DNA of 64,000 bases from positions 62,001 through 126,000 of the forward strand of contig JAKLEA010000003.1 of the NCBI GenBank assembly GCA_022711755.1, given 5' to 3'. The stretch is from Planctomycetota bacterium. Its GTDB lineage: Bacteria > Planctomycetota > Brocadiia > SM23-32 > JAKLEA01. The translations under genes were made by a program, and so were the position numbers. Below the pieces are notes generated by a model. The model had not been told where the DNA came from. It saw nothing but the letters and a program-made list of their open reading frames with translations, and did no database searches. This document shows positions 1 through 59,427 of the stretch, piece after piece. How positions within the stretch are numbered: the first letter of the stretch is position 1; each line of letters starts with the position of its first letter.

Positions 1-77
1 GGCCCTGCGACAAAATAGCGGCCCGAGCCTTCCCTACTCGCTGAAATTATCTTGGCGGGATTTCGCCGCCATGACCG

Positions 78-17156: not shown

Positions 17157-19256
17157 TTATGGGGCGATCAGCCCCGACCCTCCCCCCTCGGCGGGGGCTT
17201 CTTCTCCGGACTCTCCGGAAGCGTCCCTGGCGTCAGGTTCGAGCACGCAGAACCAGCAGGGGTACTCCTCCTGCGATTCCCACGCCTTTTTGCATCGCCG
17301 CATCAGTTCCGGCCAGGCGTTATCGTAATCGAAGTCGGGATGATTGAGGGCACGCCTCAGCAGGCTGAGCAGTTCGCCGGGATGGGTCTCCCGCAGGTGA
17401 TTGAGGAATTGCGGCGGGATCTGGTCTTCAAAGAACAGCCGGCGCAGCATGGTTGCGGCCAGCTCGGTCGGCTCCGCCGCGCCGGATAGGCAGTTGGTCA
17501 GCGGTCTAAGGTCCGGCAGGAGTTCCATCCCGATTTCCGGGAGGCAATAGACGGACATGGGATAGTCGTCCATCTTATCGCCGATTCTGACTTGCTTTGG
17601 TGCGGGGGGGCAACCGTGAATCAGCCTGAAGCTGTCCGCCGGGGCCATGCCGCTCTGGATGGAGCGCCACTCGAAGATGAAGTCATGGAGGAACTCGTTA
17701 ATTGTCGGGATGCCATCGCGCTGGGTTTCAAAATGCGCCAGCGCGCCGCCAAATTTGTTGGCGAAGGCGCGGGCCATGCTTTTCTGCAGCAACCTGCATT
17801 CCATCAACTCGTTTTCCCTGCCCAGCCAGCGCAGTTTCACGTTGGAGTTCTTGACGCGGTCGGCAATCTCGCGCGCCTCGAAAGCGTCATGCGGTTTGAA
17901 TATATTTGCCATCGGAGAGATTGACATCGCGCCATCGTCACGTTTCCAGAGGGGCGAGACTATCAAAAACCCATCCGAAATGGCGGAATTGGACGGCATT
18001 TTTACCGTAACGGCATCTCCGCCGCGTATCAGGTCATCAAGAACGATGGATTCCTTTCCGCCCTTGACGACGGAATAAACTCCGGTCATTGCGTCCGCCC
18101 AATCCCGAAGCATGGCGGACTTCTCCGGTTTCAGGCGCGCCTGACGCTCGATGAACATGTCAACAGGCCGCTTGCCAAGGCCTGAAATGTGCAACCTTGA
18201 GGCGAAGGCGAATATCCTCGTCGTCCGCAGGATATCCCTGTCACGCGGGGATTCGTTCGCGCCGACGTTGCCGACGAAGGCCTGGACCTCGGCGGCGCAC
18301 CACGGGCTGGTCGTAGTGAAGGCCATGAGTTTGTTGACGAAATCGCGCTCGTCCGGGTTGTCCCCCACGCGGGGCATCATCTGGTAATACATTTCCCGCG
18401 GGTCCTGGGAAATGCCTGAGCAGACGCCGTCGCGGCATTCGTGGCATTCCGGGAGGGCGGTGAAGAAAAGCGCACCGCAGCGATACGGTTCCCTGATGCA
18501 GACGGACTCGCGCCCGTCTCCCTTGAAGGCGTCCAGCAGGAACTGCCGGCACGCCGTGGCCGTCCGCCGGGCCAGGAGTTGAATGTCCTCATGGCGCTCC
18601 GAACAGATGATGTGATCGCGCGATTCGAAATAAAACCTCAGCGACGGAAGGATTGCCGCGTTATGAGCCGCAAGGGTGAAGACGTCCAGCAGCTTCGGAT
18701 CGGGCGGTATGAGGGCGTCAAGCTCACCGCTCGCCATTTTCCACCTTCGTCGGCAGCGGCTGAGCGCTTCTGAGGCGTCGCTGAACGGGGCCAGGAGCAA
18801 CCCCTCAAGCTCTGAGCCGGGCAGGGAGCAATGATCGCAGATGAATTCCTCTATGGTCGTCGCGAGGTGGACGCCCATGTCCTGTGCCGCGTCGTGGGTG
18901 ATTTCATATTCGGGTGATTTCACCCCCCCCCGCGCATTCCAGACGACTTCGGCAAGCTCGTTGCCGAGCCGCCAGATCAGGAAATCCCAAGCGACCGGGT
19001 GCGGCCTGACCAGGCTGCGGAATTCGATGAACCAGTCGTCGGGAATCCAGAACCGCCGCTTGTCCTCCGCCTCTTCCATCTTCGCGCGGGCCAGTTCCAT
19101 CATCCTGCCGCGCAGGCCGAAGCCGCAGTCGTTGGGGCAATTGATCTCGCTGAAACGGTGCAGGCCGCAGCATTGGGAGCAGATCCAATCAAGCAGGGCC
19201 GGGCACTTGCGTTTTCCCTTGCGGGACTTGCAGTATGCGCAAATCTGTTCGGACAT
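17157..19256 (-). CDS. Unknown protein with N-terminal cysteine cluster
   Basis: A 699-residue protein I do not recognise. The N-terminus has a dense metal-binding pattern: Cys6, Cys9, Cys18, Cys26, Cys29, Cys30, His33, Cys40 and Cys44, suggesting a treble-clef or double zinc finger. Further pairs occur at ICDHC (about 140) and CHECRDGVC (about 275). The remainder is mostly helical with no signal peptide or membrane segment, so it is cytosolic. A run of nine G in the coding strand (plus-strand C at 18923-18931) lies near residue 110; slippage there would truncate the protein. It sits between GH116 (107 bases upstream) and the linalool dehydratase-like gene (15 bases downstream). The length and neat frame show it is a real gene. 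Confidence 0.7.
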   Translation of the reverse strand: MSEQICAYCKSRKGKRKCPALLDWICSQCCGLHRFSEINCPNDCGFGLRGRMMELARAKMEEAEDKRRFWIPDDWFIEFRSLVRPHPVAWDFLIWRLGNELAEVVWNARGGVKSPEYEITHDAAQDMGVHLATTIEEFICDHCSLPGSELEGLLLAPFSDASEALSRCRRRWKMASGELDALIPPDPKLLDVFTLAAHNAAILPSLRFYFESRDHIICSERHEDIQLLARRTATACRQFLLDAFKGDGRESVCIREPYRCGALFFTALPECHECRDGVCSGISQDPREMYYQMMPRVGDNPDERDFVNKLMAFTTTSPWCAAEVQAFVGNVGANESPRDRDILRTTRIFAFASRLHISGLGKRPVDMFIERQARLKPEKSAMLRDWADAMTGVYSVVKGGKESIVLDDLIRGGDAVTVKMPSNSAISDGFLIVSPLWKRDDGAMSISPMANIFKPHDAFEAREIADRVKNSNVKLRWLGRENELMECRLLQKSMARAFANKFGGALAHFETQRDGIPTINEFLHDFIFEWRSIQSGMAPADSFRLIHGCPPAPKQVRIGDKMDDYPMSVYCLPEIGMELLPDLRPLTNCLSGAAEPTELAATMLRRLFFEDQIPPQFLNHLRETHPGELLSLLRRALNHPDFDYDNAWPELMRRCKKAWESQEEYPCWFCVLEPDARDASGESGEEAPAEGGGSGLIAP

Positions 19257-22285: not shown

Positions 22286-25200
22286 TTACGTTATCTTGTT
22301 TCCGACGTAGACGCGGGCCATGAGCTGGTCGAAGGAGTTGATGACCCCGTCGCCGTTGATGTCGCGCCGGGCATTGGCGGCATTCACCGCCTGACCGACA
22401 AATGCGCGAATGTTCAGAAGGTCGAAGCTGTTGACCTGCCCGTCCCCGTTGGCGTCGCCGCGAAGGGTCTTGACGGTTATCTGCGAGAGGCCGGATGCCC
22501 CGTTGCCCGCCAGGTCTTCAATCGCGCTGCCGAGTGTTACCGTGTATGTGTCAATGTCCGGAAGCGCAGCAGAGAGGCCGATGGTTATCTTGTTTCCCGC
22601 AACCGTCGCGCTTGTGATGAGGGAACTCTGGTTGCCGTGTGACACGCCGACGATGCTCAGGTCGGAAACGCTCACGCTGCCGGGACTCATCGCATCGTCC
22701 ATGTTGATGACGAGCTTCCTGATTCCCTGGTAGCGCGATTCCACGTAGCCGCTGGCGATATCGTTCACCAACTCCCCGATCCCGCCGCCGTGCGTGGCGG
22801 CAATCTGCCATTTGTTCACAACCGGGCCGACCGTGTCAATCGTCGTCGGATCGGAGTCGGTAGCGACGTTGCCGGCGCTGTCGGTGAAGGTGATGTTTAT
22901 CGGATGGACGCCGTCAGGTAGCGGACTCAGAGCACCCATCATGATCGAAAGGGTTTTTGCTCCTTCATTCACACACGCGATGTCCAGTGCCCCGTCGCCG
23001 TTGTAGTCCTTCACGGCGACGTCGTGAGCGCCCGCCCCGGTGGCGTAGTCCGCATCTTTCACAAACACTCCGGTCCCATCGTTTAGCAGGATGGAAACGT
23101 TGCCCGAACCGCGGTTAGCCACGGCAAGATCGGCCCAGCCGTCCGCGTTCAGGTCCCGAATCCCGACGCCCAACGGTTCACTTCCTGTGGCGTAATCAAT
23201 CCTGGGAGCGAACGTCCCATCGCCGTTGCCCATGAGAACCGAGACGTAGGTTGCTTCGGAATTGGCGCTGACGATGTCGTTGATCGCGTCACCATTGAGA
23301 TCCCCTGTTGCGAGGTACCACGGAGCAGGCCCGATGGTGTAACTGCCGCTGGAAACACAGTTCCCGCTCCCGTCGTTGAGAAAGACGGTGAAAGTTGCGG
23401 CAAAGAACGTCGCCACTGCGAAGTCCGGAACGTCGTCCGCGTTGAAGTCCGCAACGGCCAGCCCGCTTGCTGAAGTCAGGCCAGAATATTGGTCAATCCG
23501 GCTGAAGCTTCCGTCGCCGTCGTTGAACAGAATTGAAGCGTTGTTGCCCGGAAAATTGGCGGTTACGATGTCAGTGTCGCCGTCTGAATCCATATCCGCC
23601 ACGCTGATATGAGCCGGCAGTGACCCACATGCGTAATCTGAGTCCTTGACAAACGTCCCCGACTCATTGAAGAAAACGGCAAGCCCGTTTTGGTCTCCAA
23701 CGGCTAAGTCCAAGTCGCCGTCGCAGTCCATATCGGTTACCGCGATGCCGTGGGGTTCATTGCCCATGGCGAGAGTCTGACTCAGGGCGAAAGCCCCGGC
23801 CCCGTCGCCAAGAAAGACCAGTGCTCTGTCCGCACCCTTGTCCGAGATTGCCAGGTCAGTGAATCCGTCGCCGTTGAAGTCTCCCGGGGCGATCCTCTGC
23901 GCGTTACTACCGAGCGACTGACTGACAGACGGCTGGAAGGTCCCCGTCTGGAATCCCGCTGTTATCTGCACGGTTCCCGCTACGCCGACCGCCACCCTCC
24001 CGTCGGTCACGCCGTCGCCATCGAAGTCGAAAGAAAGCATTCCCGGTTCGTTGACGGTCACCGCATAGCCGGGCTTGTTGGCCGCCGTCAGATTGTCCGA
24101 ATCCGATGCCCCAAGGTCGCTGGCAGGAAGAAGGTCAGCGACCGCAGCGGGAGACGCCGCGTCAACAGTGAACCCCCGTCTTTCGTCGGCGCCGTCATTC
24201 AGCGGGTTGCCGAAGACGTCTTTCACGGAAGCGTTCCCGTCTATGACGAACTCATAAGCCTCATCGGTCAGTGCCGGATTCAGGCTGATCGTAACGACAA
24301 AAGGTCCCGCACCTCCGCCGTCTGAATACGCGGCGTCTTGGACGATGCCTGAAAGAATCCTGTCCGTTTCGTCGCCAAAGAATCCGTCCCCCCCGCTGGC
24401 GAAAATCGCGTAGTTGCCGACATCCTCGGCGGAAACCGCGTCAAGCGCCTCGCTGAACTCGACAACAATTTCGTCAACAGCAGTCCCGACGATTCCACTC
24501 GGCGTCACAGAAAGAACGGTCGGACCTGGATCGTGAACCGTGAAGGATGCAAGGAAATATCCTCCCTGGTAACCATTCCCGCTGGGAAGCGATCCGGAGA
24601 ACTCTCCGTCAACAAGCTTCCCGTCTGCGCCCGCAACGCCTTGAACCAACGGAGATGAAATCTCTTTTCTGAACCAGACCTCATCGTCGAAATAATTATC
24701 ATCCGACCAGATCCACAGCGCATCGGTCGGGTTCGGGAATCCGCCTGCATGGTTGCGCCACGGATCGGTTGCGGGATATTGCCCCCACGAGGTCGCGCTG
24801 ACCCATCCCGAATCGTCGAAACCGGGCTGTGCCCAACCGGAAACGAGCGATTCCGAGACCAGCCACGTAGTGTCGGACACGGAAACTCCGCCATCAATCG
24901 AGGCCAGGAAACCTGCGCTCCCGCCAGTGTCTCTTGCGTGGACGGCAAGCACGTTCGGCCCGGAAAGCACGTTGAGGTTCCACGTCTCGGCGGTCATCCA
25001 GTCGGAAGCTGATCCCAGGGACGTCCCGTTCCAGTAGATGTCGTAAAGATCGTCACAGGTGGTTATCGCCTGCCATTGTCCAATGACGTTTCCCACCCCG
25101 GCGGACAGAAGTACGTAGTACTCGTCATTGGGTAGAATGGATGTCGGTCTGAATGAGATTTCCTTGAGTATGTCGGAGTAAACAAGATCCGTGACGCCGA

Positions 25201-27136
25201 AGTAAGAATCATCCGCTGTCAACGGGATGCCGTCTGCGCCCGGGGAAAGCAGTTTCACCGTGTCCGTTGTGACTGTCAGGGGATTCAGCGATTGATCGAA
25301 AGCAAGCGTGATGACGGGCTGCGCGTCGTCAACGGTTGCTCCGGGAGCGGGGGTCATCGTTGTAACCCTTGGGCTGCCGTCGGACATGATAATGGTTATC
25401 GCGTCCGGTATCGGATCATCCAGACCGCCATCATCAGTAACCGTCAGTGTTACGGTGTATTCTCCGGCTTCAGGCAGCGTAAGCGAGCCGGGGTCCTCCG
25501 CAGTCGAGCTCCATGTGTAACCGTTTGGGCCGGTGATCTGCCAGTCCCATCCCGTCACGGTCCCGTTCGTGTCGTAACCCGACGCCTGAAGGTTGATCGC
25601 CTGGCCGTCGGGGATGACCGCGCCGTCAAGCGGGGAGTCTATCTTCCCGTTCGGGGAATCGTTGAATTCGTCGTCAACCTCAGCCTGAAGGTCGGAATAC
25701 TCCAGCACCACCTTCGGGGTGTAACCCGTCTGGAGTTGCCCGTCGAACCACATGGTCATGTCGTTCTCGCCCCGGTAGGCGACGCTGAAACGCTGCCAGC
25801 TCTGGCCGGTCACGTCCCAGTGGCTCTGAAGGGTTTTGATTCCCCCGGCGGCGTAGTAGTCCGCCAGGAATTCCCCGCCGTAGGGCGTGTAGGTGCCGTC
25901 GGTGTACTCGTTGGTCGTGATGAGGACGTCGCCGTTGAAGTAGGACGGCTGCGGGACGCGCACATCGGAGTAACCGGTGATCTGATCGCAGGTTATGACG
26001 CCGCCGGAGCCGTCCGGCGCGAAGTAGTTGATGAAGCTGGGGACAGTGGCTTCGTACGGCTGAAGCGACGTGTAACCATCCGCAAGGTGATGCGTGTAAT
26101 CGCCGTCATTCGGGGAGGTCAGCAGCATGTGCGACGCGATTGAGCGGGGCAGGGAGCCGATCTCCGGATATGTAATCTCGGGGTAATAGTTATGAACCGA
26201 AACCTGAGTTCCATACTGGTTCAGCCCGGTGGCGACGGTGGCGCAGCCGGGGAAGGTGACGTTTATGCGGGAGCAGCCGGACTCCGGGAAGGATGCGGTT
26301 ATGAGGTGGCGGTACTGGGAGTTGGAGAAATCGGGGTAATCGAGACGCCGCGTGGAGAGCGTCTTGGTCGTCCCGTCAACGAAGTCCCCCCAGCAGGAAT
26401 GGGAACGGCAGGCAAGGCCGAGAACGTCGCCGACGAGGTTCATGGCCTGGATGTCTATCAGGTCTAGCGCGGTGTCGGGTTTTGCGGCCTTCAGGCCGTA
26501 ATAGAGGCCCTGCAATTCCATGCCGAGGTCGCTGGTTCCCCAGTCAACCTGCGCCGGAACGGACCGTATGACCTCGTAGGTAACTCCCTCGTAGGTGAGC
26601 GCGATGGCGAGCAGTTCGTAGAACGTCTCCTCGATCTCTTCCGCCTTGTAGTAGCCCTGGGCAAAGCCGCGCTCCAGCGGATCGCCCCAGCAAACCAGGA
26701 CGGTGTAACCGTAGCTCTGGGCGTCTACCTGCTCCTCATAAATGAAGCCGTTGAGCGGGAACGCGCCGATGGAGACGGTCGGCGGATTGGGGTCGGGGTT
26801 GCCGTCGTTGTCGGTGACGGTAAGCGTTATGTCGTACTGCCCCTTGTCCGGCAGGACCAGCTTGCCGGGGTCCTCGACGTCCGAGGTCCAATAGAATCCC
26901 TCGTAGCCGACGACCTCCCAATGCCAGCTCTGGATGGTCCCGTCCGGATCGCTTCCGGAGGCTGAAAGGAAGACGGATTCGCCGGGGACGAAGATATCTT
27001 CGTTCGCCGGGGTGTCAATGACACCGGTCGGTGCGTCAAGGAGCAGACGGCTCTCAAGAGGCTCAATGCCCTTCAACCCGCCGGAAATCGAGAAACCCTT
27101 ACAACAATTGCCCCGATCGGTTTTCATCCTTCTCAT
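22286..27136 (-). CDS. Giant LEPR-XLL surface protein: PKD, C45-type hydrolase, FG-GAP, dockerin
   Basis: A 1616-residue protein. The start at 27136 is chosen for the GGAGGAAGAG before it; in-frame starts upstream (27181, and a GTG at 27253) lack one. EPLESRLLL at residues 25-33 is the LEPR-XLL leader typical of planctomycete surface proteins. Domains in order, approximate: PKD (36-125); a C45-type N-terminal-nucleophile hydrolase region (130-500) with candidate nucleophile Cys247 in SCWGDFVDG and RRLDYPD after it; PKD (505-590); Ig-like or other beta-sandwich domains (595-1010); FG-GAP/VCBS repeats (1075-1440) with many DFNGDG-type calcium motifs; and a type I dockerin (1558-1616) with GDANGDGQVNSFD and RDINGDGVINSFD. 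No cohesin gene is visible. Expression may be switched by the poly-G tract in its promoter. Confidence 0.85.
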   Translation of the reverse strand: MRRMKTDRGNCCKGFSISGGLKGIEPLESRLLLDAPTGVIDTPANEDIFVPGESVFLSASGSDPDGTIQSWHWEVVGYEGFYWTSDVEDPGKLVLPDKGQYDITLTVTDNDGNPDPNPPTVSIGAFPLNGFIYEEQVDAQSYGYTVLVCWGDPLERGFAQGYYKAEEIEETFYELLAIALTYEGVTYEVIRSVPAQVDWGTSDLGMELQGLYYGLKAAKPDTALDLIDIQAMNLVGDVLGLACRSHSCWGDFVDGTTKTLSTRRLDYPDFSNSQYRHLITASFPESGCSRINVTFPGCATVATGLNQYGTQVSVHNYYPEITYPEIGSLPRSIASHMLLTSPNDGDYTHHLADGYTSLQPYEATVPSFINYFAPDGSGGVITCDQITGYSDVRVPQPSYFNGDVLITTNEYTDGTYTPYGGEFLADYYAAGGIKTLQSHWDVTGQSWQRFSVAYRGENDMTMWFDGQLQTGYTPKVVLEYSDLQAEVDDEFNDSPNGKIDSPLDGAVIPDGQAINLQASGYDTNGTVTGWDWQITGPNGYTWSSTAEDPGSLTLPEAGEYTVTLTVTDDGGLDDPIPDAITIIMSDGSPRVTTMTPAPGATVDDAQPVITLAFDQSLNPLTVTTDTVKLLSPGADGIPLTADDSYFGVTDLVYSDILKEISFRPTSILPNDEYYVLLSAGVGNVIGQWQAITTCDDLYDIYWNGTSLGSASDWMTAETWNLNVLSGPNVLAVHARDTGGSAGFLASIDGGVSVSDTTWLVSESLVSGWAQPGFDDSGWVSATSWGQYPATDPWRNHAGGFPNPTDALWIWSDDNYFDDEVWFRKEISSPLVQGVAGADGKLVDGEFSGSLPSGNGYQGGYFLASFTVHDPGPTVLSVTPSGIVGTAVDEIVVEFSEALDAVSAEDVGNYAIFASGGDGFFGDETDRILSGIVQDAAYSDGGGAGPFVVTISLNPALTDEAYEFVIDGNASVKDVFGNPLNDGADERRGFTVDAASPAAVADLLPASDLGASDSDNLTAANKPGYAVTVNEPGMLSFDFDGDGVTDGRVAVGVAGTVQITAGFQTGTFQPSVSQSLGSNAQRIAPGDFNGDGFTDLAISDKGADRALVFLGDGAGAFALSQTLAMGNEPHGIAVTDMDCDGDLDLAVGDQNGLAVFFNESGTFVKDSDYACGSLPAHISVADMDSDGDTDIVTANFPGNNASILFNDGDGSFSRIDQYSGLTSASGLAVADFNADDVPDFAVATFFAATFTVFLNDGSGNCVSSGSYTIGPAPWYLATGDLNGDAINDIVSANSEATYVSVLMGNGDGTFAPRIDYATGSEPLGVGIRDLNADGWADLAVANRGSGNVSILLNDGTGVFVKDADYATGAGAHDVAVKDYNGDGALDIACVNEGAKTLSIMMGALSPLPDGVHPINITFTDSAGNVATDSDPTTIDTVGPVVNKWQIAATHGGGIGELVNDIASGYVESRYQGIRKLVINMDDAMSPGSVSVSDLSIVGVSHGNQSSLITSATVAGNKITIGLSAALPDIDTYTVTLGSAIEDLAGNGASGLSQITVKTLRGDANGDGQVNSFDLLNIRAFVGQAVNAANARRDINGDGVINSFDQLMARVYVGNKIT

Positions 27137-27263
27137 CTCTCTTCCTCCAAGAAGAAGCCGAGCATTAGCTACATTGGACATTCTATCCGCATTCGTGCGG
27201 GTTTTCAACAGCCGCTTCTGGCCGGCATCCTGACAGCATTCGCCCAATTTCACACGATATGAT

Positions 27264-27296
27264 ATTGTACCCCCCCCCCCCCCGTGTAAGTGTCAA
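27264..27296 (-). promoter_or_regulatory. Promoter with G14 tract in the spacer
   Basis: On the minus strand a perfect TTGACA (27296-27291) is followed by CTTACAC and 14 consecutive G, then TACAAT (27269-27264). The spacer is 21 bases; loss of four G would give the optimal 17. The start codon of the LEPR-XLL gene lies about 128 bases downstream. This is the layout of known phase-variable promoters such as Neisseria porA and opc. Confidence 0.7.
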
Positions 27297-27671
27297 GACT
27301 GATTTTTGGAATTTTGGGGAATTTTTTCGCGCGCCGGTCATCCGAGCGGGCTACGTAAGTGGCCAGTTATGGGCGTGTGGCCGTGATTTGGATTGCGGCA
27401 GTCTTGCTGCCGCCTTGTCGTTTCCCCCGGCTTGCCGGGGTTGGAAACTACCTGATCCGGCATCGCATAAGCAAGCGCACGAATGCAACGGCAAGGCGCA
27501 AGCAAGCGCGTCCGCAGAGCGGACGAGCGCATCTCCAAGGTAACGCGCCCGTCAGTGACCCACTACCTGGCAACCTATTTCGATCTTGCGCGGGGCGGAT
27601 GCCACGCCGTATTCTGGGCGGAAGAATTCCGGACTTCCAACCAGCCAGGATCATGCACGAGAGGGGATTCC
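27284..27671. other. Divergent intergenic region with hairpins
   Basis: A 388-base gap between the LEPR-XLL gene and the oxidoreductase. It contains the upstream part of the poly-G promoter and the hairpin cluster at 27395-27524. No additional gene is supported. Confidence 0.5.
27395..27524. repeat. Cluster of three hairpins (REP-like)
   Basis: Perfect short stems are GCGGCA/TGCCGC (27395-27413), CCCCGG/CCGGGG (27425-27440) and CGTCCGC/GCGGACG (27508-27524). Their spacing and G+C-rich stems resemble the elements at 15351 and 53414. Confidence 0.5.
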
Positions 27672-28875: not shown

Positions 28876-29808
28876 TTACTTCTTACGACGCTTGACGGCC
28901 ACGAGCGCGCCCAGTCCGCCCACGAGGAGCAGCATGCTGGACGGTTCGGGGGTCATGCCCTGGTAATCGCCTGTGAAACGGAGCGACAACCACAGACCCA
29001 TTCCGGCATTCTCGTCTATCCAAACAAAATTCTCGTAGCGAAGCTCAGAATGGCTGATTTCAGACGCCAACTCGCTTCCAACTTCCGTGTAACTTCCAGT
29101 GAAGCTTGACGGCAAGTTGCCGCTGTTGATCGGGCCCTCTGTTCCGAAAATGTACTCTCCGGCCGGATCGTTCGGACCGAACCACAACAGGTGAATGTAT
29201 TCACCGGGGGCCGTCTCGATGTAAGGATACGGATATCCGCCCGGCACCGGGTCCGGCGGTGGGTACGGCGGCGGACCCGGGGCGCCGGTAGCATCCGGAG
29301 GCGGGCCTACCGGCATCGTGCCATAGAGGCCGTAGTAAATGTCATAATTGAAGCTGGTAACCTCGTAATAAATCGTATCTCCCGGGATGGAGAAATTGCC
29401 TCCGCCGTCCACGGTCCCATCAGGAATGGTGCAAACACGGGCCTGAATCTGACCTGGGTCGAACTCGAGCCATGCGAAGACATACTCGAGCGGCGGGCCG
29501 ATGTACACACTCAACCAAGAACCCCAGGAAGTTGCGTTCGTCGCATTAATGCTTGGCACGTTCACGCCTGAATACGGACCCGGCTCATTCCAGTAATTGA
29601 TATTCATGCCGCCGATCATCTGCATATCGCCGCCGCCAACATACACCCAATCACCCTCTTGAGGCGGCGTATCCGGGGCATTTGCGCTCAAATACATCTC
29701 AAGGTGCAGATTACTCGTGTCCAGCAGAGAATGCTGGTGCAGGTCTGCGCGCGCGGTTACGCTCGCGAAGGCCAGCAGGGCCAACACAACAACCCATCGT
29801 CCTTTCAT
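28876..29808 (-). CDS. PEP-CTERM sorting-signal protein
   Basis: A 310-residue exported protein. The start at 29808 follows AGGAGGAACAAAGC. It has an N-terminal signal peptide (GRWVVVLALLAFASVTARA), a central beta-rich, Pro/Gly/Tyr-rich domain with no recognised family, and a C-terminal tag: PEPSSMLLL, a hydrophobic helix and the basic tail KRRKK. PEP-CTERM proteins are processed by an exosortase (EpsH/XrtA type) and are linked to extracellular polysaccharide; no exosortase is in the window. The promoter at 29873-29901 is good and the 3' end is a strong terminator, so it is a single-gene unit. Confidence 0.88.
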   Translation of the reverse strand: MKGRWVVVLALLAFASVTARADLHQHSLLDTSNLHLEMYLSANAPDTPPQEGDWVYVGGGDMQMIGGMNINYWNEPGPYSGVNVPSINATNATSWGSWLSVYIGPPLEYVFAWLEFDPGQIQARVCTIPDGTVDGGGNFSIPGDTIYYEVTSFNYDIYYGLYGTMPVGPPPDATGAPGPPPYPPPDPVPGGYPYPYIETAPGEYIHLLWFGPNDPAGEYIFGTEGPINSGNLPSSFTGSYTEVGSELASEISHSELRYENFVWIDENAGMGLWLSLRFTGDYQGMTPEPSSMLLLVGGLGALVAVKRRKK

Positions 29809-53526: not shown

Positions 53527-56500
53527 TTACTGCGCGAAATAGTAGAAGTGATGCGAGGCGTCACCCCAGTTGCCGCCGTTGTCCTGCGCCTTCACATGCA
53601 GGAAGCACGCCCCGGTTTGCGGAGCTTTCAATGTCCCCCCGGCCTCCGGCCTGACCGCTTCCGCCGGCGGATCGGTCATCGGCGACTGATCCAGGACGAC
53701 CGAATATGCCTTGATACCGGTGATATCCAGCGCGGACCACGCGAAGGCGGCGGCGGCCGGGCCGGCGCTTGAGATCATGAAGTCGTCAATATGGAATGCG
53801 AAGTTGGGCTGATTGCCCTGAAGCGCGGTCAGGAAGTCCCCGAAACAGACGGCGCTCACCTGCACGGGCTTGCCCTTCAATTCCTCCCTGGCCTGAAGCA
53901 GGGCGTTAAGGTCAACCCATGCGGTGTGCCACTGGCTGTCCGCGCTCACGCCCTGCAACTGCCCAATTATCTCGAAGGCCGACTTTCCGCCCGTGAAGGC
54001 AACGGTGTACCACTTGCCGTTGGCGTGGACGTGGAGGTCAATCTTCACCTCGGCGGGGATTGTGTAGCTGAAGGAAATTATCGGGAACTCGGCCGGATTG
54101 TAGGGGGCCGCGCGCGCGACGGTCTTCCACGGCCCCGGCGTAGCGAGACTGCAATGCAGGCACTGGTCCGGCCCAAGCTTGCCGCGCTGCACAAGCTGGA
54201 TGCGCGACGTCCCGTCCCCCTGCTGCCATCCCCCGGCGCTGTCAAGGAACTCGTCCCGCTGCAATATCTTGAGCGACGAACACTTGATCGTCGGCGCGGA
54301 TGGCGGCGTCTTGTCCTTCGCATAGTCCATCACCCACGCCCAGTTGAGGGGCTGGGAAGTGTTTCCAGCGAAATCCTTGACCGTCGCCGAGACATCCACC
54401 CGCTTGCCGTTCGGGATAGAAGTCTGGTCCTGCGGTCTTCCCACGCGCCAGTCCCAGAGGTACATGCCCCTTCCGAGATCATACGACGCGCCGGCGGATC
54501 CAAGCTGGCAGGGCTTCCCGTCAATCGTGATGCTCAGCGTCTCCGGATCAACACCCGATCCGACGTCCGAAATGGGAACTATGATCTCGTTGGACGCGGA
54601 CGGCTCTTCCGGCGCGGGCGACGGCTTTCCGAAAACGGGCGACTGCGAGTCAATCCGGAAGCGGAAATGCGCCGTCGGCCCCCAATTTCCAGCGTTATCA
54701 ACGGCCCTGATGTGCAGGTACGCCTCAGGCCCCGCCAGGTTTGTGAAAACCGTCTCCGGCGATTCATGCGTGATTTTCTGCGGCGCCTCCTCCTCCGGGT
54801 TCTGACTCCAGAGGCACGAGTACCCTTTGATCCCGGAACAGTCGGCGGCTTCCCACTGAATCGGCCCGAAGCTCTCCCCCCCCGCCACCGGAACAAACGT
54901 CAGGTTGTCCAGCAATACGTAGCCGAACGGGGCGTTCTCCATGTGCCCGGAGTCCTTGAGCCTGACCCCGGAAACACGGTAGTGGTTGGGGACGAACTGC
55001 TGCACGGAAAGGGCCTTCTGAAGATCAACCTCTGCGCGATGCCAGCGTCCGTCCTGCGTCACGCTCTGGACCTGGCCGTTTCTGCCTGTGCCCGGGGACT
55101 GGTCTGTGAAGGCAATAAGCGCGTAACGACCGGCCGGAACTTCCACGTCAAGCGCCACGCCCCGGTTAACCGCGTAATCGAAGGCAAGCAGCGGGAACCG
55201 CCCCGCGCTGAATGTCTGCGGCGTCAGGTAAGTTCCGAAGTGCCCGCCCTGCAAGGCGTTGTAGACGCACACTCCCCGCCCGCCGGGAACCCTCTGCGGA
55301 TCGGCTATGATCCTGCTGCCGTAGGCGTCGCCCATGCTGGCCATCCCCTGCTCAGTCAGGTTGGCGGTATCGAAGAACCTGTATGGTAGCGGGGGCGCTG
55401 AGGGATTGCCGGCGTTCAGGTTGGTGATTCTTGCCGGCAAGGGCGGCGTCCGGTCCAGTTTCCGCCGCGCAGTGAACTCACACTTAATCTCGAGGGCGCC
55501 GCCGATTACGTCGGTCAACGTCGCCTTCAGCGCGACCTTTTCTCCATCCGAGAAACTCAGGCCCGCAGCCGCCGGATCAAGCGCTATTTTTCTGGTTTTC
55601 GGGTCATATGCCGCGATGCGGCTGTTGGCGAAACTCAACTCCGCGCCCTTCAGTTTCAGCTTGCACTTGCTCAAATCGAGTTGCGCGGAATCCGGCTTCA
55701 GCCCGACCGTCACCATTGAAAGATTCCAATCCCCATTATGCGCCGGTTCGCTTCCGCTCTCAGCCAATGAGTCGGCAACAATGAACGGCAGATGTCTGAC
55801 GGGCGTCCAGTTCGTCTCGCCGATCTTTGCGCTCATGTGTAAATACTTCAGTCCGGGCGTCAGTTCCTGGAGCTTTGAGTGAACGCCTTCCTGCTGCGGC
55901 GGGGCGTCATTTGGATTGGGGCTGACCGTGACGGAGAACGGCGCGTTCGGCTGGCCCTCGATATTCCAGACGAATTTCGCCTCCGGACCGCCGACGGAGT
56001 AGACGCGGACGTTGTCCACGCAATAACCCGACCCGTTCGGATTGCCGCCCATCCCCGCCCAGAGATAGCCCGTATGAAGGTTGCCGAAGGCGATGGAGTT
56101 GATCTTCTCTTCCTTCTGGGGCATGGGCGCGACGCGGGCGAACGGCTCGTGAATGACAAATCGCGCGTTGCGCCATTTGCCGTCGTCTTTCACGCCCTCG
56201 ATCTCGCCGAGTTTGACCAGGTTCGGCTGGAAATCGTCAGGGCAGTTCATGCGGGCGTAGTAACGCGTCCCGCCGGCGTCGGCGTAGAAGTTGATGCGCG
56301 TGCCCGGATTGAGCTTGTAGTCGAACTCGACGACAGCGCGCCGCGCCGGGACGTGGTAAAGCAGGTCGGTCTGCGCCCCGAGCATCCCGCCGGTGCCGTT
56401 GTTGCTGACGCTAAGACAGGTCCCGCCTTCCCGGGGTTCGAGGCGGACTTCGGCGCTGTTGTAGTCGCCGACCTTCTTCCAGCCCTGGATGCCGGACTCG

Positions 56501-59427
56501 AAATCGAACACTGCCGCCGGATGGGTCTCGGATGTGACAACCAGATTAGGCAGCGGGTCGGGAAGCTTTGGAGCATTTTCAGGCGGAGGGGCGCAGAGCG
56601 CGCCGGGGGTCCTCTTGTGCTGGTAGCTGATCTTCACGCGCGCCACGACGATGGAATTGTAAAGCGTCCAGATGGCCGGGCTTCCCCACTGCGCCAGCGG
56701 CTCGCGATCGTAATAGTCGAACACCGCCTCGTTGTCGAAGAGATAACTGACCTGATTACCCTGACGCCGGGCCTTCAGGTAATACCAGGCGCCGTGAACC
56801 GGCCTTCCGGTCGAAATCCATGGAACCCGTATCGTCCGCTCCTGCGTCGGACGATCGCGCCCTTTTGGGATGAATTCGCGGTCCGTGCGCTGGACCACCT
56901 GATCGAAACGCAACAGGCGGCTCCAGACCTCGCTCCACCACGGGTCCCACGCCTGGAGCACGAAGTTGTAGCCGGAGTCAAGGCTACGCCCGTCGGTGAA
57001 TATGGCCATGTTCAGGTCGCCGATTCGGGGATAGTTACCGTTCAGCCCCAGGTCCCCGCGCTGCATGCGCATCCCGGTGTGGGACTCGATGGTCATGTCC
57101 CCATAGAATTGCGTCCTGTCCCAGAGTATCGCGGACTCCAGGCTTTTGCCGACCATGTGGCTCCAGCGGGGATCGCAGACGAAGCGGTTCATGACCGCCC
57201 ACTTCCCGACGGCTTCCCAACCTGTCGGCGCCGACTCGAAATAATGGTCCTCGACATTTGTGCGGAAAATCTTGATCGTCGAAAGGTCCACAGGCGTTTC
57301 GGACTTCAACGCGACGCGGGTGCTCTTGAGCAGCTCCCCGTCCTGGAACGTGATGATTTCCTGTCCGCCGGACGTGATCCACAGGAAGGACTCATCCTTG
57401 TGAATTTCGACCGCCGGCGCGGTCTTGCCGTCCGCCCCGACGGGGATGAAGGCGCTCTGGACCTCTTTGCCGAGTCGGTAAAGAACGACTGCCGGCAGCT
57501 TTTGCGCCTCCTTCTTCTCCTCCGGTTTGGCGGGGGAATCCCGCTCCTCGATGCGGATTGCGTATCCGCCCTTCACGTCAATCATGGAGGCGCAGTGGAT
57601 GAGCATGACGCCCTTGGCGGCCGGCAGCGTGATGACCGATCTGCCGTAGAAATCCCCGACGTGCCAGTAGGCGTTCTCCATGTCCCACTGCGGCCACCAT
57701 GCGCCCTTCGGGCTGGACCAGTGCTGCATGAAAGGATCGCTCTGGAAAACCTCCACGGTCGGCTGCCGTTCGATGTCCTCGTTGCGCTGGAAGGCGAAAC
57801 ATACGTCGGCGAAATGAAGCGGTCGGACGGCGCTTCCGACCAGTCCCAGGCTTCCATCGGACGGTTCCGCCATGCGCATCCGCAGGGCGGTCCAGTCGTC
57901 CACGCAAGCCCTTATCTCGCGCTCACTGCGAAGGTCAACGAGCAATTCATGCGTATCGCCCGGCAGAAGGCGGGGAGGTTGCGATTCCATGAGCACGCGC
58001 CGCCCCTCCGCGCTGCGCTTTACAAGCTGAATCCGCGACTCCTTATCGCCATTGGCCGGCCCGCGCCAGAGAACTTCATGATACGGCGTTCCGTCGCCCT
58101 TGTAGTCGAGGATGATGCCGACCGATTCCCCCCTGCCCGGCTGCTCAACGCGGCAGGAAGCAACGATTGAACCGCGATTCGTCGGCCCGAACAGCAGGCT
58201 GCCGTCTCCGTTCTTCAACCGCATGACCGCCGCGCTCGGCATCCCGTGCAAGGCCGACATCGCGAAATCCCATTCTCCTTTCAATACCTTCGTATACTCC
58301 CTGACCCATCTCCTGTTCGTATAGGGAAAGACCGTTGTCGAACTGACCGAAACGTCGTCGAAGGTTGCGTTCTCCTTAACCTCGGAATACAGGCCTATCA
58401 TGCCGCCGAAGGCTGATTCATGCTCGACGCTCATCACCGGAGCGTCATCCAGGAAAGCGTCAACCCGCCTCCCCAGCGTCCTGATTCCGATGCGGTACCA
58501 CTGGTTCGTCCGGCCCGTCACCCATGCGCCCGCCAGTACCTGTTGCTCCCCCGCCTTCACCCTAACAATCTCCATCTTCGAGGGCGAAGGGGACTCCCGC
58601 TCAACCTTCCAGCGCAGAAGAAAGAAATCGTCATCACCACGATAATCGAAGACCAGCCCCATGACGCCGCCGGGATTGGTGACGCTGACGCGCGCGTCAT
58701 AATCACACCAGAACCACTGCCCCCCCAGCAGCAGCGCCCAGTCCGCCGTGGACGCGTTCATCGAGAAAGGATTCGGGCTGTGAACCGCGTCCGGCCTTCG
58801 GGATGCAGGAAGCGACGAAACGTTGATATTGTCCACGTCCTCAACGATGGAGTGCAGCTTCCACGTCCCCCGCTTGACGACCCAGGACTGCGAAATCTCG
58901 GCCTCGTTATCGGCTCTGCGGAAGTCGTCTCCGAAGCGTAGCGGAACCGTCTCCTGGCATCGCACCTTATCCGTGAGGGCGATGCCCGATGCGAAGACGG
59001 CTATTTTCCCGGAGCCGAAGGTGTCGTCAAAAGCCTCCAGAACCACTCGCCCCTGGGCGTAGACCGAGATGAGAAAGAGTTCGCGCTTGATGAATATCTC
59101 GAGTTCCTGGCCGGAGAACGGCTCGGCGGCGCATCCGGCCAGTATCTTGGCGCGCCCGTTTTCAATCCGGCGAAGGCCGTAACCGCGCGGGGTGACGTCA
59201 AGCGAGTAGAGGTTGTTCTGATCCTTGAAGCCGAACAGGACGCGGGTTTCGGGATCTGGTTTCGATATTCCCGCGAAGTTGAGGCACAGGACGAAGGTCG
59301 GCTCTGCGGGGTTCGAGATGACGCGGTATTCGCGATCTTCGAAAGCGATATTTTCCTGCGCTTCCGCCTGGCACAGCGCGGCGCACAGGAAAACCGCCAG
59401 CGAATGGATAATGAATCGGCTCGGCAT
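53527..59427 (-). CDS. Giant secreted multi-domain protein (concanavalin-like and Ig-like modules)
   Basis: A 1966-residue protein. The start at 59427 follows GGAG and begins a signal peptide (RFIIHSLAVFLCAALCQA). The first 1000 residues carry repeated beta-sandwich modules of the DUF1080/LamG type, recognisable by paired phrases such as DDFRRADNEAEISQSW and GTWKL, and VKGEWDF. The middle has two or three carbohydrate-binding-like domains with DNVRVYS and LDNLTFVP. The C-terminal half contains three Ig-like modules ending in LHMSAKIGETNW, LHIRAVDNAGNWG and LHVKAQDNGGNWG. No catalytic motif, anchor or sorting signal is visible; a carbohydrate-binding or matrix role is likely. It has a good promoter of its own. 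Confidence 0.8.
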   Translation of the reverse strand: MPSRFIIHSLAVFLCAALCQAEAQENIAFEDREYRVISNPAEPTFVLCLNFAGISKPDPETRVLFGFKDQNNLYSLDVTPRGYGLRRIENGRAKILAGCAAEPFSGQELEIFIKRELFLISVYAQGRVVLEAFDDTFGSGKIAVFASGIALTDKVRCQETVPLRFGDDFRRADNEAEISQSWVVKRGTWKLHSIVEDVDNINVSSLPASRRPDAVHSPNPFSMNASTADWALLLGGQWFWCDYDARVSVTNPGGVMGLVFDYRGDDDFFLLRWKVERESPSPSKMEIVRVKAGEQQVLAGAWVTGRTNQWYRIGIRTLGRRVDAFLDDAPVMSVEHESAFGGMIGLYSEVKENATFDDVSVSSTTVFPYTNRRWVREYTKVLKGEWDFAMSALHGMPSAAVMRLKNGDGSLLFGPTNRGSIVASCRVEQPGRGESVGIILDYKGDGTPYHEVLWRGPANGDKESRIQLVKRSAEGRRVLMESQPPRLLPGDTHELLVDLRSEREIRACVDDWTALRMRMAEPSDGSLGLVGSAVRPLHFADVCFAFQRNEDIERQPTVEVFQSDPFMQHWSSPKGAWWPQWDMENAYWHVGDFYGRSVITLPAAKGVMLIHCASMIDVKGGYAIRIEERDSPAKPEEKKEAQKLPAVVLYRLGKEVQSAFIPVGADGKTAPAVEIHKDESFLWITSGGQEIITFQDGELLKSTRVALKSETPVDLSTIKIFRTNVEDHYFESAPTGWEAVGKWAVMNRFVCDPRWSHMVGKSLESAILWDRTQFYGDMTIESHTGMRMQRGDLGLNGNYPRIGDLNMAIFTDGRSLDSGYNFVLQAWDPWWSEVWSRLLRFDQVVQRTDREFIPKGRDRPTQERTIRVPWISTGRPVHGAWYYLKARRQGNQVSYLFDNEAVFDYYDREPLAQWGSPAIWTLYNSIVVARVKISYQHKRTPGALCAPPPENAPKLPDPLPNLVVTSETHPAAVFDFESGIQGWKKVGDYNSAEVRLEPREGGTCLSVSNNGTGGMLGAQTDLLYHVPARRAVVEFDYKLNPGTRINFYADAGGTRYYARMNCPDDFQPNLVKLGEIEGVKDDGKWRNARFVIHEPFARVAPMPQKEEKINSIAFGNLHTGYLWAGMGGNPNGSGYCVDNVRVYSVGGPEAKFVWNIEGQPNAPFSVTVSPNPNDAPPQQEGVHSKLQELTPGLKYLHMSAKIGETNWTPVRHLPFIVADSLAESGSEPAHNGDWNLSMVTVGLKPDSAQLDLSKCKLKLKGAELSFANSRIAAYDPKTRKIALDPAAAGLSFSDGEKVALKATLTDVIGGALEIKCEFTARRKLDRTPPLPARITNLNAGNPSAPPLPYRFFDTANLTEQGMASMGDAYGSRIIADPQRVPGGRGVCVYNALQGGHFGTYLTPQTFSAGRFPLLAFDYAVNRGVALDVEVPAGRYALIAFTDQSPGTGRNGQVQSVTQDGRWHRAEVDLQKALSVQQFVPNHYRVSGVRLKDSGHMENAPFGYVLLDNLTFVPVAGGESFGPIQWEAADCSGIKGYSCLWSQNPEEEAPQKITHESPETVFTNLAGPEAYLHIRAVDNAGNWGPTAHFRFRIDSQSPVFGKPSPAPEEPSASNEIIVPISDVGSGVDPETLSITIDGKPCQLGSAGASYDLGRGMYLWDWRVGRPQDQTSIPNGKRVDVSATVKDFAGNTSQPLNWAWVMDYAKDKTPPSAPTIKCSSLKILQRDEFLDSAGGWQQGDGTSRIQLVQRGKLGPDQCLHCSLATPGPWKTVARAAPYNPAEFPIISFSYTIPAEVKIDLHVHANGKWYTVAFTGGKSAFEIIGQLQGVSADSQWHTAWVDLNALLQAREELKGKPVQVSAVCFGDFLTALQGNQPNFAFHIDDFMISSAGPAAAAFAWSALDITGIKAYSVVLDQSPMTDPPAEAVRPEAGGTLKAPQTGACFLHVKAQDNGGNWGDASHHFYYFAQ

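Follow-up and report, generated by a model that had tools for sequence, protein, structure and literature searches.

Most known contingency loci come from host-adapted pathogens, and a promoter layout with a poly-G tract is that of the Neisseria porA gene. In the same genus, it is a promoter tract of poly-C that makes opc variable (PMC3960869). The likeness of both genes to the locus analysed here is that a promoter homopolymer controls a surface protein. However, the present case concerns another phylum and far larger proteins, with several similar promoters per genome and almost only poly-G tracts; four of the five genes also have a tract-free promoter in tandem, and length variation is here a prediction. 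In Chlamydia trachomatis, which belongs to the same superphylum, a poly-A tract lies between the predicted -35 and -10 boxes of lpxC, and reads show 12, 11 and other numbers of A (PMC4514472). The homopolymer thus occupies the same position, but it is poly-A, at a single locus, before the gene for a lipid A enzyme, in a host-restricted pathogen. A further relative is Neisseria nadA, where a promoter-region repeat is reported to render a surface adhesin phase-variable through spacing (PMC2791445). The spacing there is one among distal promoter elements and acts with the repressor NadR, whereas here the tract lies within the core spacer, without a known repressor. Our literature search returned no paper describing phase variation by homopolymers in planctomycetes, and no prior link of the LEPR-XLL/dockerin class of proteins with repeat-tract promoters. 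What we describe would be a device of a known kind that has turned up in a new lineage with new features, two of which, the bias for G over C and the tandem constant promoter, are not predicted by the Neisseria model.

The poly-G tract of the window and the gene downstream

The window, i.e. the whole stretch of 64,000 nucleotides that was analysed, corresponds to C46:62001-126000 in a genome of 5.94 Mb and 121 contigs. The features on which the argument depends are these:

27353..27559, no strand assigned: dispersed repeat of about 205 bp upstream of P1; the genome carries nine or more further copies, 74-87% identical and several of them partial
27291..27296, minus strand: TTGACA, -35 box of P1, the distal promoter (sequence)
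27284..27290, minus strand: CTTACAC, the 7-nt non-repeat portion of the P1 spacer (sequence)
27270..27283, minus strand: G14 tract (C14 on the plus strand), directly adjoining the -10 box (sequence; homopolymer counts)
27264..27269, minus strand: -10 box TACAAT of P1, spacer 21 (sequence)
27203..27208, minus strand: -35 box TTGAAA of the proximal candidate promoter P2 (consensus scan of the leader)
27180..27185, minus strand: TAGAAT, -10 box of P2, with a spacer of 17 and a distance of 43 nt to the ATG (consensus scan of the leader)
27144..27148, minus strand: Shine-Dalgarno sequence GGAGG (sequence)
22286..27136, minus strand: P0001, 1616 aa, with LEPLESRLLLD near the N-terminus (LEPR-XLL type), PKD, a weak C45-like region, Big_5, FG-GAP repeats and a type I dockerin

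An earlier note had described a TTGACA, a 21-base spacer ending in 14 G and a TACAAT, and this matches the minus-strand sequence exactly, with a long simple repeat between the -35 and -10 boxes. Its remark that no other homopolymer of the window exceeds nine is equally accurate, the runner-up being a C9 at 18923-18931. Transcription from P1 would be expected to start at about 27257, and the distance from P1 to the ATG is 127 nt, the start codon being most likely the ATG at 27136 behind GGAGG. The LEPR-XLL/dockerin protein that had been placed downstream is there too: P0001 carries LEPLESRLLLD at its N-terminus and a type I dockerin at its C-terminus, as do planctomycete surface proteins of this class. 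We defined LEPR-XLL proteins by an N-terminal [LIV]E.[LR]..R[LIVM]LL in a large repeat-rich protein of extracellular type, and P0001 has both the motif and the architecture; no curated LEPR-XLL model of NCBIfam matched it at E≤0.01. Its C45-acyltransferase-like region scores 30.7 bits, against a curated cut-off of 85, and gave no match in a PDB search; a scan of genome contigs with P0001 as query found no relative. The LEPR-XLL proteins of this genome fail the signal-peptide rule, and we infer their surface location because of their domains.

Candidate P2 (TTGAAA-17-TAGAAT, 27208-27180) sits downstream of P1 and upstream of the gene, so that P1 is not the sole promoter candidate of the gene. 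This bears on the proposal of a phase-variable promoter made in the earlier note: the sigma-70-type layout, the tract within the spacer and the large surface-type protein downstream all stand, while ON/OFF switching becomes less likely given P2. On balance, we think that the G14 tract is a functional element of P1 and that P1 is a real, distal sigma-70-type promoter of the LEPR-XLL/dockerin gene. The 205-bp repeat was considered as a carrier of the promoter in the window and ruled out, since its matches come to an end about 57 nt before the -35 box is reached. In the C13 paralog, GC-rich sequence of a similar kind, with AAGCAAGCGC units, lies between the two promoters.

Recurrence in the genome and across the phylum

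A search of the same genome with TTGACA-N3-12-G9+-N0-6-TANNNT gave six distinct sites, with tracts of G10-14, against none with the reversed pattern used as control:

C46:89270: G14, P1 of the window
C13:118163: G10, LEPR-XLL/dockerin protein downstream
C68:95991: G10, LEPR-XLL/dockerin protein downstream
C68:270892: G10, LEPR-XLL/dockerin protein downstream
C57:76782: G11, LEPR-XLL/dockerin protein downstream
C33:182: G11, 170 nt from the contig end, no readable gene

Wherever the gene is readable (five sites out of five), an LEPR-XLL-type N-terminus lies downstream, and a dockerin 93-100% identical to that of P0001 (58 residues) ends an open frame that fits in position and in length at each of these five loci. 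The frames measure 1668, 2171, 1075, 1042 and 4706 codons from stop to stop, and the five proteins behind tract promoters range from about 1000 to 4700 aa. Three further dockerin paralogs whose upstream DNA is readable, on C100, C29 and C2, have no tract. For the genome as a whole, there are 75 G/C runs of at least 10 and 11 of at least 12 in 5.94 Mb, two of the 11 being obvious contig-end artefacts, and there are 38 matches to TTGACA-N15-23-TANAAT, compared with 6 to its reversal, with a long G run in two of the 38.

Equivalents of P2, of the form TTAA[CG][AG]-17-TATAAT and with 10-11 of 12 consensus matches, are present in the paralog on C13 and in the two on C68, at a distance of 49 nt from the ATG. 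Four genes out of five thus have a tract-free promoter with a 17-nt spacer 43-49 nt upstream of the ATG, and their poly-G promoter is the distal member of a tandem pair; about 1% of shuffled leaders contain a comparable site. In the fifth gene, on C57, the leader scan detected the P1-type site and no P2 equivalent. Given this tandem arrangement in most of the genes, the role of the tract promoter is probably to modulate expression rather than to switch it ON and OFF.

In a further 391 genomes of the phylum, which the LEPR-XLL, DUF1559 and PEP-CTERM proteins suggest to be Planctomycetota, the pattern TTGACA-N3-12-G9+-N0-3-TANNNT has 20 sites in 15 genomes, against one for its reversal (P=2e-5). 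Substituting poly-C for poly-G leaves 2 sites instead of 20 (P=1e-4; outside the genome of the window), a strong preference for G that would not be expected from spacing alone. The genes downstream are biased towards export or surface functions: in addition to the five LEPR-XLL genes out of five here, 16 of the 20 readable ones elsewhere are exported-like, against a baseline of 196 of 653 (30%; P=8e-6), the size of the bias being approximate because the baseline comes from one genome, that of the window, and because the call, a rule-based signal-peptide-like test, also counts membrane proteins. Loci with G7-8 tracts are exported-like in one case out of six, for six loci only. Many of the downstream proteins have no Pfam match; the matches include peptidase M23, LamG, TPR and DUF1559 pilin-like domains.

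Tract length varies from 9 to 17 across similar promoters, and what stays constrained is the total spacer rather than the tract. Within the genome of the window, similar promoters have G14, G11, G11 and G10; in genome G107, a poly-G-spacer promoter precedes each of two exported proteins that are glycine-rich and related to one another (L180 and L192), with G16 and G10; and in G385 similar promoters have G11 and G12. The intergenic DNA of the window had no useful match elsewhere in a sequence search, and an ortholog test in the genus of G319 yielded a sole usable pair, that of G319 and G272: the sister species is without tract and its spacer is still 19, so that the tract is not conserved, as judged from this one pair.

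We consider it somewhat better than an even bet that these promoters form a family of contingency loci acting through the promoter spacer, which would be new to Planctomycetota. More tentatively, and with slightly less than even confidence, we suggest that Planctomycetota may use, phylum-wide, strand-specific poly-G-spacer promoters for exported and giant surface proteins, often stacked before a constant promoter, and that this would give many independently drifting surface expression levels. If true, the benefit would be surface bet-hedging against phages, predators or changing substrates, which would then also be used outside hosts, by environmental Planctomycetota.

Spacer compensation, proposed slippage and competing explanations

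Upstream of genes in the genome of the window, TTGAC-16..18-TAnnnT is found 36 times, against 4 on the opposite strand, and TTGAC-TAnnnT pairs with spacers of 19-21 are found 16 times, against 2. The P1 spacer of 21 exceeds the preferred 16-18. The earlier note expected the loss of four G to restore a 17-base optimum; a simple reading in which 21 means off was rejected, since 19-21 is also in use. For the 24 tract promoters, spacers average 18.1 with a mode of 19, tract-plus-offset is negatively correlated with the other spacer bases (r=-0.66), and the variance of the total spacer is 4.4, against 12.2 when the parts are shuffled (P=3e-4). Such compensation is what would be expected if RNA polymerase reads the whole spacer. 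Boxes placed upstream of genes at constrained spacing are what genuine promoters should display, and this much is found, on sequence evidence only.

The reading that we favour is that P1 has a tuning role via slippage, because each G shifts the spacing by one, while P2 would give the base level. Most likely, slipped-strand mispairing in the G run would shift the -35/-10 spacing by single bases; the strength of P1 would then differ between cells and lineages, raising or lowering expression above the basal level supplied by P2. Runs of such length are established to slip in Neisseria and others, and G14 should, by analogy, be long enough to do so. Tract-length differences among similar promoters and the precedent of Chlamydia lpxC fit this tuning role; slippage and its effect on transcription are inferred, and phase variation at poly-G-spacer promoters is plausible. 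Five observations count against this reading: each locus was seen at a single tract length, G10 is constant in three paralogs, P2 might make P1 unimportant, the G272/G319 ortholog is tractless, and G is favoured over C.

Some of the same observations would suit a fixed, strand-specific element, i.e. a G-rich stretch of the non-template strand, adjoining the -10 box, that is read by RNA polymerase or a regulator or forms a G-quadruplex, its exact length being of minor importance. Outside the genome of the window, the non-template strand carries G at 20 sites and C at 2, which points that way, and this model is kept alive because spacing does not explain the G-strand bias. It could also account for the promoters on C13 and C68 (two), which have diverged by several flank substitutions yet are all exactly G10, and for the 19-nt spacing kept in the ortholog without tract. 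We nevertheless hold it to be rather unlikely, since tract length goes from 9 to 17 between similar promoters while the total spacer is what is constrained, and since the G7-8 tracts show no bias for exported proteins, in the six loci available. It is more doubtful still that P2 is the working promoter and that P1 and its tract are decaying or accidental, retained through duplication with the paralogs. Four genes out of five do have a P2 with the canonical 17-nt spacing, placed 43-49 nt from the ATG, comparable sites occur in only about 1% of shuffled leaders, and the P1 spacing is over-long. But P1-type sites occur phylum-wide in unrelated contexts, their spacing is compensated and they strongly favour one class of genes, and C57 has P1 without P2.

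A sequencing or assembly artefact, or a chance pairing of a homopolymer with promoter-like hexamers, is very unlikely and is rejected by the reversed-pattern controls (0 and 1 sites against 6 and 20); moreover, the downstream genes are far from random, and the P1 tract is internal, with ordinary sequence on either side. Apparent poly-G artefacts do exist in this assembly: C58 ends in G32 and G16 (L016 8044-8097) and C59 begins with G10 (L101 1-10), as is typical where poly-G arises in the reads or where an assembly breaks at a tract. Four of the 75 long tracts are within 200 nt of a contig end, against 0.6 expected (P=0.004), an excess that could reflect either polymorphic tracts breaking the assembly or poly-G read artefacts.

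A few observations concern other parts of the window and other tracts of the genome. At 53527-59427, the window contains a 1966-aa open frame without match in Pfam or NCBIfam, and at 28876-29808, adjoining the P1 region, it encodes a protein of 310 aa whose C-terminus bears a PEP-CTERM/VPLPA-CTERM sorting signal. On C35 (C35:187001; L013 7990-8060), a G16 lies about 13 nt upstream of the TTGACA of a promoter-like site, i.e. outside the promoter, and a 521-aa gene follows. On C40 (C40:33047; L014 8048-8060), a G13 is found inside a called 283-aa gene, which makes this a possible translational contingency locus.
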